From Thermotoga sp. KOL6 (lineage in GTDB: Bacteria > Thermotogota > Thermotogae > Thermotogales > Thermotogaceae), in the NCBI RefSeq assembly GCF_002866025.1, contig NZ_LNDE01000001.1, forward strand, positions 1 to 64,000: a stretch of 64,000 nucleotides of DNA. The letters are read 5' to 3'. The notes beneath the pieces were generated by a model. It had not been told where the DNA came from, searched no databases, and saw only the letters and a list, made by a program, of their open reading frames with translations. The translations under genes and the position numbers were made by a program. Position 1 is the first letter of the stretch; each line of letters starts with the position of its first letter. Of this stretch, positions 43,015-50,750 are shown piece by piece.

Positions 43015-43029
43015 AAGGATTTCACAACC

Positions 43030-43648
43030 TTTGTTAGTGAATACTACCACTATTTTCTCTGCTAGTTCTATCACCCGTTGAACATCTTCCTCATCAAAGG
43101 TTGTCGAAGGAATCCTCCGGGCAAGGCATCTAGACAACAGATTGGTATGTTGTATTTGTCCAATGAACTGGCTTCTTATCCTATAACTTTGAACTCTTTG
43201 TCGAAAGATTGAACATCCTTATATTCCTTCAGTTCCACTTTTCAAGAAAAAACTCTTCAGCACTTTTTCTGTGAATTGTTATGCCAGAAAACATACGATA
43301 TTGTATCGTTTTCCAAAGAGGTTGAACCTCACATCTTCCATATCCTATAATCCTTGCAAAAGCCAGTGCTTACTTTCTTTGTTTCTCATACAGTATTCTT
43401 CAATCTATCAAGAAATCTCTTATATAACGATGAAATCAACATCACTCGATTTGTGAACTTTTCCAAGCATGAAACCAAACTAGAATGACTTTTTCTACAT
43501 CTAGTTCCACAATCCTTGGTAACAATCTTCTCAAGCTCATTACGAGAACAAAAGAGTATTTCGGAAGAAAACGTTTCAACTTTTCTAACTTTCCATTTCT
43601 GTCGAAAAGGTCAGGTCTTCTCATCTTGGATTCATGGAGGAAAAGCAA
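43030..43648 (-). pseudogene. Remnant of an archaeal-type AAA ATPase gene
   Basis: The minus strand carries broken pieces of the same family as the intact gene at 35183-36265, in the right order. Near 43648-43540 the translation reads SKMRRPDLFDRNGKLEKLKRF followed by FVLVMSLRR, which matches the family start up to the P-loop, where the GKS is lost by a shift. Near 43330-43300 MEDVRFNLFG matches the LENVRILITGSE block, and near 43110-43050 FDEEDVQRVIEL matches the helix before the GIPG motif. Stops and shifts separate the pieces. Confidence 0.6.
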
Positions 43649-43729
43649 GGATATATGCTATTGTAACACTTTCAGAAAAATTCAATGAGTGGCTTTAGAA
43701 AAAACCATGAAGGAGGTAAGAACCGATTC

Positions 43730-44005
43730 GTGAAAGAACAAGTAAATACTATCGTATTTGATCTAAGGCGTGTTCTAATCCATTGGAATCCGTATGGATA
43801 TATGGCGAAACGTTTTGATGAGAAAGCCGCAGGGTTCTTGAATGAGAACATTTTCGATTCTCATGAATGAATGATCATCGACAGAGGAAATTTTGAAAAG
43901 AACAAGTTTTGGAAACTCATGATCGATAAGTATCATCAATACAAAAAGTACATTGAGTACACGAAAGACGCATCATTTGATCTTTTCAAACTTATTACAA
44001 CATAG
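43730..44005 (+). pseudogene. Remnant of a HAD-superfamily hydrolase gene
   Basis: The translation TIVFDLRRVLIHWNPYGYM matches the first motif of HAD hydrolases (normally FDLGGVLIDWNP), though the two Gly are now Arg. The frame continues through IFDSHE to a TGA at 43868-43870. The family has Glu-Trp here, so this is probably a TGG-to-TGA change, because downstream MIIDRGNFEKNKFWKLMIDKYH keeps the family pattern until TAG 44003. GGAGGT remains upstream. The catalytic core beyond motif I is lost. Confidence 0.65.
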
Positions 44006-44226
44006 ACTCAAACGCATTCGAAGAAGTGCCCCAAAATTTTGTGTATGTCTTCATTTAGAAAGCTTTGATAATTCTGTTCTTCCCCGTCTTTTCAGCAGTT
44101 TGCAGGGAGGCCAGGTAGTATCCTGTAAAGTAACAAAAATCGTTATTCAATACAGGAAAAATTTGGAGATAGACGATTTTGCGTGATTTCGTATATCGAT
44201 GATCAAAGAGTTTCTTAAATTCATTA
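44006..44226. other. Non-coding remnant DNA
   Basis: No gene, hairpin or repeat can be supported here. Stops occur in all frames. It is probably a further decayed part of the HAD gene or of a lost neighbour, between that remnant and the stop of the permuted mutase gene. Confidence 0.5.
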
Positions 44227-45804
44227 TCATCTCGAAGAATTTCTATCAACGCTCACTTTTATACCTTTCCCATAAACCAGTGCGTTGTAAGCTATCTTCG
44301 TTCTATCGTAGCGTTTGTCCCTATCAAGAGCCCATTTCCTACCAACACCGGTGACTATGTAGACTCCTTCATAACGCTCGACCTTTTCACTCAAGATCCT
44401 TAGAAGTTCGGATGCTTTCATATTTTCAACACCGTGGCGGTTAAATATGACATGGATAAATATATCTTTGATACCCATGGATTTTGCTTTTTCAACCAAA
44501 GCGATGGGATAATCTATGGTTCCATGAGAACTTTTTGTTGAAAGCATCGATATGAGATGGAGTTTCTTGTTCTTTCTCAAAACTCGTTTGAAGGCTTCCA
44601 CGAACACCTTTCGTTCGGCGAATGTTCCTTCTTTTAAAGATCTCTCTATGATAACCTCGTCTTGAATAACAACTCTTCCAGCACCTAAATTCATATGACC
44701 CGCTTCTGAATTCCCTGGTCTCCCCTTCAAAAGTCCAACATCTTCTCCGGATGCGGAAAGCTCTCCATGTTCGTATTTTTCAATCAGTTCGCACCAAAAT
44801 TTTGGTTTTGCAATATATATAGGGTTTCTTTCATCTTTAGGCCCTATTCCCCAACCATCCATGATGATGAGAATCACCCTATAGCTTCGCGTGGGTTTTT
44901 CAAGAAGAAGGCTCTCAATCATTTCATCAGGTTTTTCAAGTCCCATCAGTTTCAGAACAGTGGGGGCGACGTTCGATATTCTCCCACTTTTCTTAAAAGC
45001 GATTTTATCATCTGGAAGGATGAGAAAAAAAGGAACAGGATTCGTCGTGTGACCTAGATTTGGGACAGGAGGATTCAAAGATTTCATACCAAGCTCTATG
45101 AGTCCATGATCTGCTGTTATTAAAACCGCATAGTCGTTACTTAAAGCGGTTTTCACTGCTCTTTCAAGCGCTTTGCTTAGATGTTTAACACATTCTACTT
45201 TTGGTTCCATATCGGGAAGATGGCCTATTACGTCAGCGTTTGCAAAGTTCACAAGTATGAAATCGTATTCTTTTCTTTTAATTTCTGTGGTTAAAACTTC
45301 AACTAATTCGTAAATGGAAAGCTCGGGGATTTTTGAAAGATCTTCAAAACTGGGGGATTCCACTAAAACATCTGTTTCATTCGGAAAAGGAGTTCTCCTT
45401 CTTCCATTGAAAAAGAACGTAACATGGGCATATTTTTCAGATTCCGCCATGTGGAGTTGCTTCAGATCGTTTTGTGAAATAACCTCGGATAAAGTGTTCT
45501 TAAGGGGAGGAAAATCGAAAGCCACTTTGACATTTTTGAATCTTTCATCGTATTTAACCAAGGTCACAAATTCCAAATCTTTGAATCTCTTAACCCTGAA
45601 TTTTTCGAAATCTTCCATCACAAAGGCTTCAGTGAGTTGAATTTCTCTTTCACCTCTTCTGCAACAGAAAATCACTGTATCCCCATCTTCTATTCTTCCG
45701 AAGGGCTTACCACCTAAATAGGCAACAATAGGTTCTATATCTTCATCTCTTTTTCCAAGCTTATATAGCTCTTCCAGTTTATCAGCTATAAGTGTACCGG
45801 TCAT
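44227..45804 (-). CDS. Circularly permuted 2,3-BPG-independent phosphoglycerate mutase homologue
   Basis: A 525-aa protein with all parts of a cofactor-independent phosphoglycerate mutase (GpmI), but in swapped order. Residues 1-297 match the normal C-terminal half (GRIEDGDTVIF, SEKYAHVTFFFNG, NFANADVIGH, TADHG, HTTNPVP, MGLEKPDEM). Residues 308-525 match the normal N-terminal half (LIIMDGWG, GNSEAGHMNLGAGR, DRDKRYDR). The predicted metal and phospho-serine residues are all present: D191, H195, D232, H233, H252, D316 and S366. The new ends fall in the middle of the normal transferase domain. The usual DGRD substrate motif is replaced by NRHG and one His of the HSH motif by Thr. It is the last gene of a transporter operon and overlaps the gene before it by ATGA. 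Confidence 0.9.
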   Translation of the reverse strand: MTGTLIADKLEELYKLGKRDEDIEPIVAYLGGKPFGRIEDGDTVIFCCRRGEREIQLTEAFVMEDFEKFRVKRFKDLEFVTLVKYDERFKNVKVAFDFPPLKNTLSEVISQNDLKQLHMAESEKYAHVTFFFNGRRRTPFPNETDVLVESPSFEDLSKIPELSIYELVEVLTTEIKRKEYDFILVNFANADVIGHLPDMEPKVECVKHLSKALERAVKTALSNDYAVLITADHGLIELGMKSLNPPVPNLGHTTNPVPFFLILPDDKIAFKKSGRISNVAPTVLKLMGLEKPDEMIESLLLEKPTRSYRVILIIMDGWGIGPKDERNPIYIAKPKFWCELIEKYEHGELSASGEDVGLLKGRPGNSEAGHMNLGAGRVVIQDEVIIERSLKEGTFAERKVFVEAFKRVLRKNKKLHLISMLSTKSSHGTIDYPIALVEKAKSMGIKDIFIHVIFNRHGVENMKASELLRILSEKVERYEGVYIVTGVGRKWALDRDKRYDRTKIAYNALVYGKGIKVSVDRNSSR

Positions 45805-46943
45805 AGAATCGCCTCCATGTCGATGAATTCTCCTTTTTTTGGTATCAGAACTTTAGAACCATTCTTTTCGAGGAAACATTTCACACTATCAAGATCTTCT
45901 CTTCTCGAATGGAAGGGTATAACAACTCTGGGAGCCACGGTATCAATTATTTTCAAAAGATCTTCAGCATCCGGATGAACCTTCCATACGAAAGAGATCG
46001 CCCTTCCATCTTCGTTCAAAAGTTTCCATCCCGGAGTTCCTTCTTCAACGTGTCCAGTGATGACAAAAGTAGTGTTTTTCTCTTCCTTCAACAACTCAAA
46101 AAGTATTTTCGATGTACCTGATGTTATCATTCCATCAGTTGCAAGGTATATCCCATAAGGTAATTTTTTCGGAATAGAAGAGTTGATTCCAGACATATCT
46201 ACTCTCACTTTTGTACTTTCGTGTTTCTCCAAAAATTCAAAACCCTTCAATATATTCTCATCAACAAAGACTGGTTCCATCCCGTTTTCCAAAAGTTTCA
46301 CTAATATTTCCTGTGATCTTCCAATCTCCGGAACAGGAAGAACTATCCTTTTATCTTTCACATCAAGGAGATTCAAAAGTTCTTCTCTTTTTCTTAGCTT
46401 CTTTATCCCGTAAGCTGTATCCACAACTAAAACATCGGCTTTTGGGAATGGGTCAAACGTGTAGAGTGGGGAGTCCAGGGTAACATCTCCTGTGTACAAA
46501 AAGGAGTATTTTTTCAAAAAAATCCATCGCGAACCTACCACATGACCGCTTCTTCCAATCTTCACAGGTAAATCCATTGGGCGTTCTTTGAAAACAGGTG
46601 AACTTTCAAGGAATCTTTTATACCTTCCTTCGTCCTTCAAAAGTTTTCCAGCTACACTCATCCAATTTCTAACCTGGGATTCCAAGAGAATAGAAGTTGG
46701 TTTTGAACAAACAATATAAGAAAAATCAAGAAGGGGGATCGCTCCAACGTGATCCAGATGAGAATGGGAGATAAACAAAAAATCGAGAGGGCCAGATGGT
46801 TCCATAGGATACACTTCATCAACATTGCTCCCAAATTTTCGTTTCACGCCATAGTCGAACACGATTCTTTTTTTATCTATCAGTATTTCAAACCCTACTC
46901 GCCCTTTTTCACCTACTCCTCCAAGGACTCTGAATTTCAGCAT
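45801..46943 (-). CDS. Metallo-beta-lactamase fold hydrolase, beta-CASP-like
   Basis: A 380-aa protein with the metal motif HSHLDH (H60, H62, D64, H65), a second histidine in RSGHVVGS, the aspartate of LYTGDVTLDSP and a final histidine in VVIPFHSRRED. The long segment between the third and last ligand, with GMITSGTS and GHVEEGTPGW, resembles the beta-CASP arrangement of RNase J/CPSF-type nucleases. An alternative is a phosphodiesterase for small molecules. It sits between the ABC ATPase (three bases) and the permuted mutase (ATGA), so it belongs to the operon. Its substrate is unknown. Confidence 0.82.
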   Translation of the reverse strand: MLKFRVLGGVGEKGRVGFEILIDKKRIVFDYGVKRKFGSNVDEVYPMEPSGPLDFLFISHSHLDHVGAIPLLDFSYIVCSKPTSILLESQVRNWMSVAGKLLKDEGRYKRFLESSPVFKERPMDLPVKIGRSGHVVGSRWIFLKKYSFLYTGDVTLDSPLYTFDPFPKADVLVVDTAYGIKKLRKREELLNLLDVKDKRIVLPVPEIGRSQEILVKLLENGMEPVFVDENILKGFEFLEKHESTKVRVDMSGINSSIPKKLPYGIYLATDGMITSGTSKILFELLKEEKNTTFVITGHVEEGTPGWKLLNEDGRAISFVWKVHPDAEDLLKIIDTVAPRVVIPFHSRREDLDSVKCFLEKNGSKVLIPKKGEFIDMEAIL

Positions 46944-46946
46944 TTT

Positions 46947-48008
46947 TCAATCCTCCACAATCACTGCCTTCTTTATCTTCAGTTTGACATATTCTCCTTC
47001 CTCAAAAATTTGGTACTTAGGAGCTTTGATTCTAATTTCTTTTCCGGCGAAGATGATGTAATCTATGTGATCTCCAAGAAACGTCCTTTTCTTGATCTTG
47101 GCTTTGATATTTCCCTTCGGTGTTATCTCCAAATCTTCGGGTCTTATCACAACAGTTACTTCTTTTTTCAAATTTTTCAGCTTGTGACATGCGATCACAA
47201 TTGGTTTGTCTGCCAGTTCTAAAAGCTTAACTTCGACATCATTTCCGATTACTTCAATTATCTCGCCTTTCAAGAAATTGGATATGCCTATGAAACCAGC
47301 TACAAATCTGTTTTTTGGAAATTCGTATATCTCTGCAGGAGAACCTATTTGTTGAATCACACCGTCTTTCAATACGACTATTCTGTCCGACATGACCATG
47401 GCTTCGGATTGATCGTGTGTTACATACACAACGGTAACACCTATTCTTCTTTGAATATCCTTTATCTCAAACCTCATTTCTTCTCTGAGTTTTGCATCCA
47501 AATTGGAAAGAGGTTCATCCAAAAGAAGGATTTTTGGAGAGTAAACCAAAGCCCTTGCAAAAGCCACCCTTTGTTGTTGTCCTCCAGAAAGTTGGTAGGG
47601 AAAGCGCCCTTCAAGTCCTCTTAATTTCACTACTTCTATTATCCTTTCAACTCTTTCCTTTATCTCATCTTTTGGCATTTTCCTTATTTTCAGAGGATAG
47701 GCTATGTTGTCGAAAACACTCATGTGAGGCCACACAGCATAATTTTGGAAAACCATACCGATGTTCCTCTCTTCGGGAGGAACGTTGATTTTCCTTACCT
47801 TTGAGAAAACGCATTTCCCGTTTATGAGTATCTCTCCGGAAGAAGGAGACTCAAATCCTGCTATCATCCTGAGAGTTGTAGTTTTACCACATCCAGAGGG
47901 CCCTAAGAGAGTCACGAATTCTCCGTCTTCTATTCCTAAGTTCAAATTCTTTATGACATGATTTTTTCCGAAGAATTTCTCTATTTTGTTTAAAACTATC
48001 CTGGCCAT
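46947..48008 (-). CDS. ABC importer ATPase, FbpC/PotA type
   Basis: A 353-aa single ABC ATPase with Walker A GPSGCGKTT (36-44), signature LSGGQQQRVAFARAL, Walker B ILLLDEPLSNLD and switch histidine VTHDQSEAM. A C-terminal TOBE-like domain (about 245-353) is present, as in the iron(III), sulfate, spermidine and 2-aminoethylphosphonate groups. The ATG overlaps the permease stop (ATGA). It works with the fused permease upstream. The sequence alone does not tell the substrate. Confidence 0.93.
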   Translation of the reverse strand: MARIVLNKIEKFFGKNHVIKNLNLGIEDGEFVTLLGPSGCGKTTTLRMIAGFESPSSGEILINGKCVFSKVRKINVPPEERNIGMVFQNYAVWPHMSVFDNIAYPLKIRKMPKDEIKERVERIIEVVKLRGLEGRFPYQLSGGQQQRVAFARALVYSPKILLLDEPLSNLDAKLREEMRFEIKDIQRRIGVTVVYVTHDQSEAMVMSDRIVVLKDGVIQQIGSPAEIYEFPKNRFVAGFIGISNFLKGEIIEVIGNDVEVKLLELADKPIVIACHKLKNLKKEVTVVIRPEDLEITPKGNIKAKIKKRTFLGDHIDYIIFAGKEIRIKAPKYQIFEEGEYVKLKIKKAVIVED

Positions 48009-49654
48009 CAGGTTCTCTCCCTTCCGAGGAGATATCTGTTCACGACATATTGAAGAATAAAAGCTATTACAAGGACAAAAACTGCAAAAGCAGATGCCAT
48101 TTGATACTCTCCGCCCTCTTGGAGTTCGTAAATCGTAACTCCTATTGTTCTTGTCTGAGGACCGTACAGTAAAATCGATATAGTGAGTTCTCTGAAAGTC
48201 GGCATGAAAACAAGAGCCCACGATGAAAGTAGGGCGGGTTTCAATATGGGAAAGGTTATATCTTTCAGAACTCTTAGTTGCTTGGCACCAATCGATCTTC
48301 CAGCTTCTTCAAGAGATTCATGAATCTGCCTTACAGCTCCAGAAACCGTTCTTACGGATAAAAACATGTACCTAGCGGTATAAGCAACGATGATTATCCA
48401 CATTGTGTTGTAGAGGTTTATACCAAACTTACTGGACCACATGAGTATCATGGCAACTGCAAGAGCAGTTCCAGGGATGGCTTGAGGAAGGGTCGACAAC
48501 CCATCCATAAATTTCGAAACTAGACTCTTAACCCTCACCGAAAGGTATGCAACTACGGATCCCAATATAGTAACGAAAGTTGCGGAAAGTATGGCGAAGA
48601 CAAAACTGTTTCTAATTGCGCTCTTCGTGTTCTCATCGACGAAAAGAACTTTGTAAAAATTTCCAAAAGTAAAACTTGAGAATTTAAAGGGAAGCCCCCA
48701 TGCTTTCCAAAGCGATGTCAGAGAGAGAGAGAAAAGAGGTAGAAAAACTGCAAAGATAACAAAGATCCAAACTGCAAAGCTTGTGATCATCTTGAATTTC
48801 CCAAGTCTTATCTCAGTTGGTCTTGTAGATTTCCCAGTTATGATTGTGAATTTGGATTTTGAAACGAAAAGGTTGTTCAACGTGAGTCCTGTTATTGCTA
48901 TACCTACCAATATCACAGAAAGAGAAACTGCTCTGCTTAATCCTTTTTCCGTTCCCGATGCTATGTAGGACATTATCCTCGTGGTAAGAACATGAATTCT
49001 AGCAGGCATTCCTATCAGAGCCGGTATTCCAAAATTCGCGGACGTCATTGCAAATACCAAAAACGCACCTGATAGTATACTGGGAAGAACTAAAGGAAGA
49101 GAGATCGTTCTCATAACCCTGAAAAGTCTAGCGCCACACACCCTACCTGCTTCCTCCAAAGATGCGTCCATACTCATAAGGGCCGTGTGAACAGTTATGA
49201 AAACAGGTGGATACATATACATTGTCATCACAAGAACGAGACCAGGAAAGGAATGGACATTGAAGAGAATATGACCGAAGAATTTTTCCCATAATTTATT
49301 TAAATAACCTGCCCTTCCAAAAAGAAACATCCATCCCATAGCGCCTATGAAAGGTGGTATCATGTAAGGCACCATGAGAAGTGTTTTTAGAATCGATTTC
49401 CCGGGAATATCCGTTCTTGCGATAAGCCAAGCAAGGACAGATCCTATAAGAGTGGCAAAGAATGTGGTTGAAATTGCAAGATATAAGGTGTTCAAAGCAC
49501 TTTTTATGTTGCTTTTTCTGGTGAAAGTATCGATGTAATTTTTCAGAGTGAATAACGCTTCTTCTCCTTTGAAACTATCCAAAAATAGAAGAATCAATGG
49601 AATAGCTATCAAAATGAACATGACAACAAAGGTGATCCATAAAAGAACTTTCAC
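48008..49654 (-). CDS. ABC importer fused double permease, FbpB type
   Basis: A 548-aa inner-membrane protein with about 12 helices and two BPD_transp_1 domains, each with an EAA-type loop: MDASLEEAGRVCGARLFRVMRTISLPLVLPS and IHESLEEAGRSIGAKQLRVLKDITFPILKPA (given here only as landmarks; the EEAGR cores mark them). This fused two-domain form is typical of Fe(III)/AfuB/PhnU-like importers. GTG 49654 follows GAGGTGG by four bases. It is separated from the binding-protein gene by a terminator-like hairpin. Confidence 0.93.
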   Translation of the reverse strand: MKVLLWITFVVMFILIAIPLILLFLDSFKGEEALFTLKNYIDTFTRKSNIKSALNTLYLAISTTFFATLIGSVLAWLIARTDIPGKSILKTLLMVPYMIPPFIGAMGWMFLFGRAGYLNKLWEKFFGHILFNVHSFPGLVLVMTMYMYPPVFITVHTALMSMDASLEEAGRVCGARLFRVMRTISLPLVLPSILSGAFLVFAMTSANFGIPALIGMPARIHVLTTRIMSYIASGTEKGLSRAVSLSVILVGIAITGLTLNNLFVSKSKFTIITGKSTRPTEIRLGKFKMITSFAVWIFVIFAVFLPLFSLSLTSLWKAWGLPFKFSSFTFGNFYKVLFVDENTKSAIRNSFVFAILSATFVTILGSVVAYLSVRVKSLVSKFMDGLSTLPQAIPGTALAVAMILMWSSKFGINLYNTMWIIIVAYTARYMFLSVRTVSGAVRQIHESLEEAGRSIGAKQLRVLKDITFPILKPALLSSWALVFMPTFRELTISILLYGPQTRTIGVTIYELQEGGEYQMASAFAVFVLVIAFILQYVVNRYLLGRERT

Positions 49655-49670
49655 ATTACCACCTCTGTTG

Positions 49671-49693
49671 AAAAAAGGGAGGGACTCCCTCCC
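49671..49693 (-). terminator. Attenuating terminator after the binding-protein gene
   Basis: On the minus strand GGGAGGG (49693-49687) pairs with CCCTCCC (49683-49677) around a three-base loop and is followed by TTTTTT. It starts four bases after the binding-protein stop and should let only part of the transcripts continue into the permease, ATPase, hydrolase and mutase genes. Confidence 0.88.
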
Positions 49694-49697
49694 AACT

Positions 49698-50675
49698 TTA
49701 CTCAAATATGTCGGAGAAGGTATTTTTTATATCGTCGGAACTGTCTTTCAAATCTTCCCAATCAACCGTGTAAGATTTCTTGATAAGCTCTTCCAGTTTT
49801 GGAGCACCTTCAGGCATCTCAACATCAGCCCTTACGGGGATTAAACTGCCCTTTTCAACTAGAATCCTCTGCCCCTCTTTTGATAAGACAAAATCAACAA
49901 ACTTTTTAGCTTCATCCGGATACTTTGTTGTTGCAATTATACCAATTGGGCTCCATATAAGAATGTTGTTCTTTTCAGGATACACGAGGTCTACGGGAGA
50001 TCCCTTAGATTTTAAAGACCTTATCATGTAATCCAAAACTATCGCGATTTTGTAAGAACCGTTTGCTAGTTCTTGAGATGCTGTCTTATTTGAACTCACA
50101 ATTGTCAAACCATTTTCAGAGAGTTTTTCGAGGAAATTCCATCCGTAAAGTTTTACCATGGCGTAAAGCCAAACAAGATTTGTTCCCGAATACAGAGGTG
50201 AAGCACTCACTATCGAGTTTTTGTACTCACTTCTCAGAAGATCCTCCCATTTTTTTGGTACGTTTTCCTTTTTCAAAAGATTGGTATTGTACGCGATGAT
50301 AACGGACATTATTCTGGTCCCAGCGAAGTAACCATCTTTATCTTTGAATGAATCTGGTATATTCACGGATTCTGGCGATGTGTACTTCATGAGAAGGTTC
50401 TTTTCCTTAAGATAGATATAATACGATGGATCCGCAGTCCACAAAATATCTGCTTTTATTTCTCCAGCTTTCATTTCAGCGAGAATTTTGGCGGTGACTT
50501 TCGATGTTCCTGATCTCCAAACGATCACGTCGATATTAGGATACAACTTCTCAAAAGCTTCTTCCACTTCAGTTACAATAGACGAAGGAACGGATGTGTA
50601 AAGAGTTATCTGAGTTTTCGGGAAAACATAAGAAAGAGCTAGTGCAATCACCAAAAGAACAACGAACTTTTTCAT
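49698..50675 (-). CDS. ABC importer periplasmic binding protein, FbpA/AfuA/PhnS class
   Basis: A 325-aa exported receptor of the type 2 fold. A signal peptide (about 1-20) precedes TQITLYTSVPSSIVTEVEEAF, then WRSGTSKVTAKI and ADILWTADPSYY, the usual first half of the family. In iron-binding FbpA a Tyr pair lies in the C-terminal lobe; here the matching stretch (AIVLDYMIRSLKSKG) shows only one Tyr, so Fe(III) is not favoured. AfuA-type members bind sugar phosphates and PhnS members bind aminoethylphosphonate. ATG 50675 follows GGGGGAGATAGG. It is the first gene of the five-gene operon. Confidence 0.88.
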   Translation of the reverse strand: MKKFVVLLVIALALSYVFPKTQITLYTSVPSSIVTEVEEAFEKLYPNIDVIVWRSGTSKVTAKILAEMKAGEIKADILWTADPSYYIYLKEKNLLMKYTSPESVNIPDSFKDKDGYFAGTRIMSVIIAYNTNLLKKENVPKKWEDLLRSEYKNSIVSASPLYSGTNLVWLYAMVKLYGWNFLEKLSENGLTIVSSNKTASQELANGSYKIAIVLDYMIRSLKSKGSPVDLVYPEKNNILIWSPIGIIATTKYPDEAKKFVDFVLSKEGQRILVEKGSLIPVRADVEMPEGAPKLEELIKKSYTVDWEDLKDSSDDIKNTFSDIFE

Positions 50676-50750
50676 CCTATCTCCCCCTTTTGAATAGCTT
50701 ACACATTTAAAATTATACTCAATCAATGATTATCAAAAGTTATTTGTCCA
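50676..50750 (-). promoter_or_regulatory. Promoter region of the permuted-mutase ABC operon
   Basis: A consensus -10 box TATAAT lies at 50717-50712 on the minus strand, 37 bases before the first start codon. A clear -35 is not visible at 17 bp; upstream the repeats TTGATAATCA and TTGATTGA overlap the expected position and could bind a regulator. Confidence 0.5.

Follow-up and report, generated by a model that had tools for sequence, protein, structure and literature searches.

Cofactor-independent phosphoglycerate mutases (iPGM or GpmI; TIGR01307; structures 1EJJ, 1O98 and 2IFY) are encoded by lone glycolytic genes and have a canonical order of parts: the first metal Asp and the nucleophile, the transferase domain, then the remaining metal ligands. 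In the B. stearothermophilus enzyme, residues S62, H123, R153, D154, R185, R191, R261, R264 and K336 contact 2PG/3PG (PMC3886921). The protein described here, P0001, shares with these enzymes the pieces of the fold, the two-metal site, the nucleophile Ser and the phosphate-binding Arg and Lys residues, at about 38% identity in Foldseek alignments. It differs from them in that its halves are swapped, in that D154 and N259 are replaced throughout its family (and R153 as well in P0001 itself), and in that its gene is an importer-linked accessory gene. Archaeal-type phosphoglycerate mutase (ApgM; TIGR00306, PF10143) belongs to the same alkaline-phosphatase superfamily, but P0001 does not match PF10143 and scores 34.7 bits with TIGR00306, whose cut-off is 320.

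Layout and predicted fold of the permuted protein

The P0001 gene occupies 44227..45804 (-) of the window, the whole 64,000-nucleotide stretch of Thermotoga sp. KOL6 DNA that was analyzed, and encodes 525 amino acids. It starts with an ATG at 45804 that shares a 4-bp ATGA overlap with the stop codon of the upstream gene, and a Shine-Dalgarno-like GGAGG (45812..45816 (-), read directly) lies 7 nt before the ATG. A phmmer search of the PDB matched P0001 to cofactor-independent phosphoglycerate mutases only (whole-protein E = 6.9e-93), as two pieces that are each collinear with 1EJJ but come in swapped order. Residues 10-300 (44905..45777 (-)) match canonical residues 220-508 with 190 bits and comprise the remainder of the transferase domain plus the C-terminal phosphatase part; residues 310-514 (44263..44877 (-)) match canonical residues 6-210 with 126 bits and comprise the first metal Asp, the nucleophile Ser and the first half of the transferase domain. 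Between them, at residues ~299-309 (44878..44910 (-)), a linker connects the original C-terminus with the original N-terminus. Pfam and NCBIfam matches likewise fall in swapped order. The equivalog model TIGR01307 matches as two such stretches at 449.4 bits, above its cut-off of 330.65, and the equivalog NF003897 (PRK05434.1-5) gives 335.8 bits, below its cut-off of 862. P0001 is an iPGM-fold protein with swapped halves; the order given by the first-pass annotation, C-terminal half ahead of N-terminal half, is borne out by the swapped 1EJJ matches and the two-stretch TIGR01307 match.

The AlphaFold2 model of P0001, made with the permuted-protein alignment as input, is one complete, closed alkaline-phosphatase plus transferase fold (mean pLDDT 94.0, pTM 0.89), the outcome that the annotation had said would support its claim. 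The model is confident through the linker (pLDDT ~96), with no low-confidence break there, and residues 523-525 are the sole stretch with pLDDT below 50. Together with the alignment, it agrees with two further features read from the sequence beforehand: the old ends are connected by a short linker, and the new ends fall within the transferase domain. Foldseek returned 22 matches to the model at E < 0.001, all of them iPGMs with probability 1.00; the alignments span ~250-310 columns, about half of the chain, because Foldseek aligns in sequence order and the chain is permuted. No earlier description of a permuted iPGM was found among the CC0, CC BY and CC BY-SA papers in PMC; subscription papers may hold one.

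Catalytic and substrate-contact residues

The putative catalytic residues of P0001, all encoded on the minus strand, are the metal ligands D191 and H195 (1EJJ D403 and H407; 45220..45234 (-)), D232 and H233 in ADHG (D444 and H445; 45103..45114 (-)), H252 (H462; 45049..45051 (-)) and D316 in DGWG (D12; 44848..44859 (-)), and the nucleophile S366 in GNSEAGH (S62; 44695..44715 (-)). All seven had been assigned in the first-pass annotation, and none varies among 40 aligned permuted proteins. The same picture came from aligning 53 permuted with 116 canonical iPGM sequences: S62 and the ligands D12, D403, H407, D444, H445 and H462 are retained in P0001 and in 53/53 permuted proteins, as are H123, R261, R264 and K336 (53/53), and R185 and R191 are retained in every permuted protein that has letters at those positions.

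Other positions on the glycerate-contact side have changed. Residue 154 is D in 115/115 canonical proteins with that position and in none of the 53 permuted ones (49 S, 4 G), and residue 259 is N in 116/116 canonical proteins but in none of the permuted ones (52 C, 1 D); D263 and A265 are both replaced by E in all permuted proteins. In P0001 the affected blocks read NRHG (44431..44442 (-)) instead of canonical DGRD, so that substrate residues R153 and D154 are both gone, and CRRGERE (45643..45663 (-)) instead of canonical NFRPDR(A), with N259 gone and R261 and R264 retained. The DGRD block is DGRS elsewhere in the permuted family; the two nearest relatives of P0001 share its loss of R153. Eight of the nine substrate-contact residues are thus retained in the permuted family in general, and seven of nine in P0001 (R153 to H, D154 to G). 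Because the metal ligands and S62 are retained while D154, N259 and R153 are changed, the chemistry side of the permuted enzymes is intact and the acceptor side altered. The earlier statement that no conserved block is missing is therefore inexact: it holds for the nucleophile, the metal ligands and the residues of the phosphate site, and fails for DGRD, which has become NRHG, and NFRPDR, which has become CRRGER.

Genomic context and proposed function

The permuted gene comes last in an operon that begins with a solute-binding protein (49698..50726 (-)), followed by a fused ABC permease (48008..49705 (-)), an ABC transporter ATPase (ORF 46947..48221 (-), with a true start probably near 48011 when the sequence is read directly) and an MBL/beta-CASP-type hydrolase (45801..46943 (-)), which shares 4 bp with the permuted gene. 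The best NCBIfam matches of the permease and the binding protein were PhnU2 (202 bits; cut-off 593) and phnS2 (148 bits; cut-off 392.75), making the importer nearest to a putative 2-aminoethylphosphonate type, below curated cut-offs. PDB relatives of the binding protein are mostly named iron-binding, but also include the PLP-binding P5PA (6wce) and 4r72-4r75, which we take to be the hexose-phosphate-binding AfuA. From this family resemblance we infer an importer of organophosphate/phosphonate type. On the other side of the permuted gene, positions 43015-44226 (1.2 kb) hold short ORFs only and lie between convergent operons; a broken HAD gene was considered there (stretch near 43700-44000) and had no Pfam support.

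Among Thermotogota, the importer permease (E < 1e-60) occurs in 9/11 genomes with the permuted gene versus 1/92 without it (Fisher p = 2e-10, uncorrected for relatedness), and the window-type beta-CASP gene occurs in 3/103 genomes, all three of which have the permuted gene. Neighbor genes vary from lineage to lineage. Across 57 permuted loci, many of which end at contig ends or have small flanks, the permuted gene has as neighbors an importer permease (24 loci), HAD phosphatase (23), ATPase (22), RpiR regulator (20), ApgM (16), solute-binding protein (14), PRK/uridine-kinase-like kinase (14), cyclic 2,3-diphosphoglycerate synthetase homologue (10), xylose-isomerase-like TIM barrel (9) and beta-CASP hydrolase (5). 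In Anaerolineae an ApgM gene lies within the permuted-gene cluster. In the same class, one or two genes next to the permuted gene (L010:7535-8752 and relatives) encode a ~400-residue protein whose PRK/uridine-kinase-like C-terminal half is preceded by 195 unassigned N-terminal residues.

Cyclic 2,3-diphosphoglycerate synthetase is thought typical of methanogens. Its homologues beside the permuted gene (L004:3051-4379, L028, L029 and L166-L172) are full-length (E = 1e-135 to 8ORK/8ORU) and come mostly from Bipolaricaulota, plus one contig binned as Thorarchaeota that is possibly misbinned. The synthetase fold is unrelated to that of P0001, and the window operon has no such gene and has the beta-CASP-type hydrolase instead.

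A housekeeping role for the permuted enzyme is unlikely because 33/37 genomes carrying the gene have another phosphoglycerate mutase, whether ApgM above its cut-off, dPGM or canonical iPGM. The resident enzyme of the window genome is an ApgM, above cut-off (G000:C1:464543-465661). The four genomes outside this count were G104, G107, G119 and G554, the last being covered only partly for canonical iPGM.

Taken with the residue changes, this context leads us to favor, with reasonable though not strong confidence, an importer-linked permuted iPGM subfamily of one origin that acts as a phosphomutase or phosphotransferase on a related phosphorylated acid and is not a housekeeping enzyme. The fold would close as usual, bringing together the two-metal site, the nucleophile Ser and the phosphate-binding Arg and Lys as in GpmI, and for this reason phosphoryl transfer would be expected to proceed via phosphoserine (Ser366-P). 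Every permuted member has changes on the glycerate-contact side, so a different substrate seems likely; the enzyme may move or remove the phosphate of a related acid or sugar acid that is phosphorylated and taken up through the linked importer. Counting against this reading are the mostly iron-binding names of the nearest solved binding-protein relatives, the importer matches below cut-offs and the variation in neighbor genes among lineages. Since the substrate-contact residues are always changed and genes for import of phosphorylated molecules often adjoin, the permuted enzyme is probably distinct from GpmI and has so far been mislabelled.

The main rival reading is an ordinary 2PG/3PG mutase, incidentally permuted, that serves imported or glycolytic phosphoglycerate and in which the replacement of D154 and N259 is neutral or compensated; the serine in place of D154 could compensate partly. 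A phosphoglycerate importer would make sense of the operon, and H123, R185, R191, R261, R264 and K336 are all retained along with the metal ligands and S62. Plain mutase activity is possible given the retained ligands, the eight of nine contacts kept (seven of nine here) and the TIGR01307 score above cut-off. A working 2PG/3PG mutase is less likely, however, because D154 and N259, invariant in the canonical proteins, are replaced in every permuted one, R153 is also gone in the window subgroup, a second mutase is usually present, the gene sits in an importer operon and ApgM can lie in the same cluster. On balance we consider the ordinary-mutase reading unlikely.

Improbable, in our judgment, is a phosphatase that does not hold an acceptor, so that the phosphoserine is hydrolyzed and phosphate is released from an imported organophosphate. 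The retained metal site and nucleophile, the changed acceptor-side residues and the adjoining importers would suit such an enzyme, and HAD phosphatases are frequent neighbors, but these would make its activity redundant; moreover, the acceptor-side residues R153, H123, R185 and R191, needless for a plain phosphatase, are retained in most members.

Returning to the phosphomutase or phosphotransferase that we favor, a bolder version can be entertained only tentatively: the permutation may have accompanied the birth of an enzyme that acts on an imported phosphorylated acid in an undescribed way and that is found in at least five phyla and annotated as a glycolytic mutase. Its substrate might be, for example, bisphosphoglycerate or cyclic phosphoglycerate.

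Distribution and origin of the permuted order

That P0001 is two genes joined in assembly, an outcome that the first-pass annotation had named as fatal to its claim, or the product of a frame artefact, or that its order is due to chance, is ruled out for practical purposes because the same C-half-first order is found in one open frame at 57 loci. They come from independent assemblies, with Levilinea saccharolytica KIBI-1, chromosome CP070811.1 and the single-contig genome G023 among them; purifying selection on permuted genes (dN/dS 0.06-0.12 in four close pairs) also speaks against an artefact. These loci fall in Thermotogota, Anaerolineae, Spirochaetota, Bipolaricaulota/Acetothermia and Clostridia. 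Carriers in Thermotogota include two more lineages near P0001 and a genus with genomes of ~3 Mb, KIBI-1 and CP070811.1 are among those in Anaerolineae, and those in Spirochaetota are Sphaerochaeta and relatives.

P0001 has the features that define the permuted subfamily: the C-half first in one frame, the motif FCCRRGERE, the absence of D154, and a place in a single clade. In the tree of un-permuted sequences, the 41 permuted rows form one clade (SH-aLRT 99), as the permuted rows do in the C-half tree (SH-aLRT 99); the N-half tree groups 40/41 at 97, the exception being a long branch, L120. Judged by these trees, the permuted subfamily is of single origin; it would have arisen once, when the old ends, which both lie in the phosphatase domain, were linked and new ends opened in the transferase domain at about canonical residues 210-220, and then spread between phyla. 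L120:1501-3048 (-), from a Chloroflexota genome, is the most divergent permuted relative (35% identity), with altered blocks FYDLRGERE and GRRG, and its enzyme perhaps uses yet another substrate.

Six genomes from the genus to which the window belongs contained no permuted gene, no close beta-CASP match and no close importer-permease match, for which reason lateral gain or repeated loss of the window operon is probable. In one genome of the Thermotogota genus with ~3-Mb genomes, the only match to the permuted gene (L092; G025:C1:1607628-1607789) is short and stop-interrupted, perhaps what is left of a lost copy.

Under the duplication-then-trimming model, permutation has to start from a head-to-tail pair, AB-AB. 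Two complete canonical iPGMs arranged head to tail at most 200 bp apart were found at 33 loci, mostly in Patescibacteria, a frequency that is a biased estimate since a query spanning the joint selects for tandem loci. Such pairs correspond to the starting state of the model, each copy being canonical, unlike the permuted gene. The tandem copies (most of L034-L081) are often in the same frame with one stop codon between them; L070 has three canonical iPGM genes in a row, and in L051, L069 and L079 one of the copies is broken into a pair of open frames, which may reflect a pseudogene, a sequencing error or a real split. Tandem copies 1 and 2 form separate clades. Derivation of the permuted C-half from copy 1 and the N-half from copy 2 gave AU p values of 0.41-0.54 where tested, and the PERM+PT1 grouping in the N-half tree had a support of 87, unstarred. 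By these measures the tandem pairs are neither favored nor rejected as direct source of the permuted clade.

Few central metabolic enzymes with a mobile two-domain active site are known to be naturally circularly permuted. Because the permutation and the substrate-site change coincide across at least five phyla, a link between rewiring of the chain and new function becomes testable in this family, and the AB-AB pairs of Patescibacteria provide a living example of the intermediate needed by the duplication model. For genome annotation, the NCBI equivalog model labels the permuted genes as glycolytic phosphoglycerate mutases although their genomes usually have another, which would mislead pathway models.
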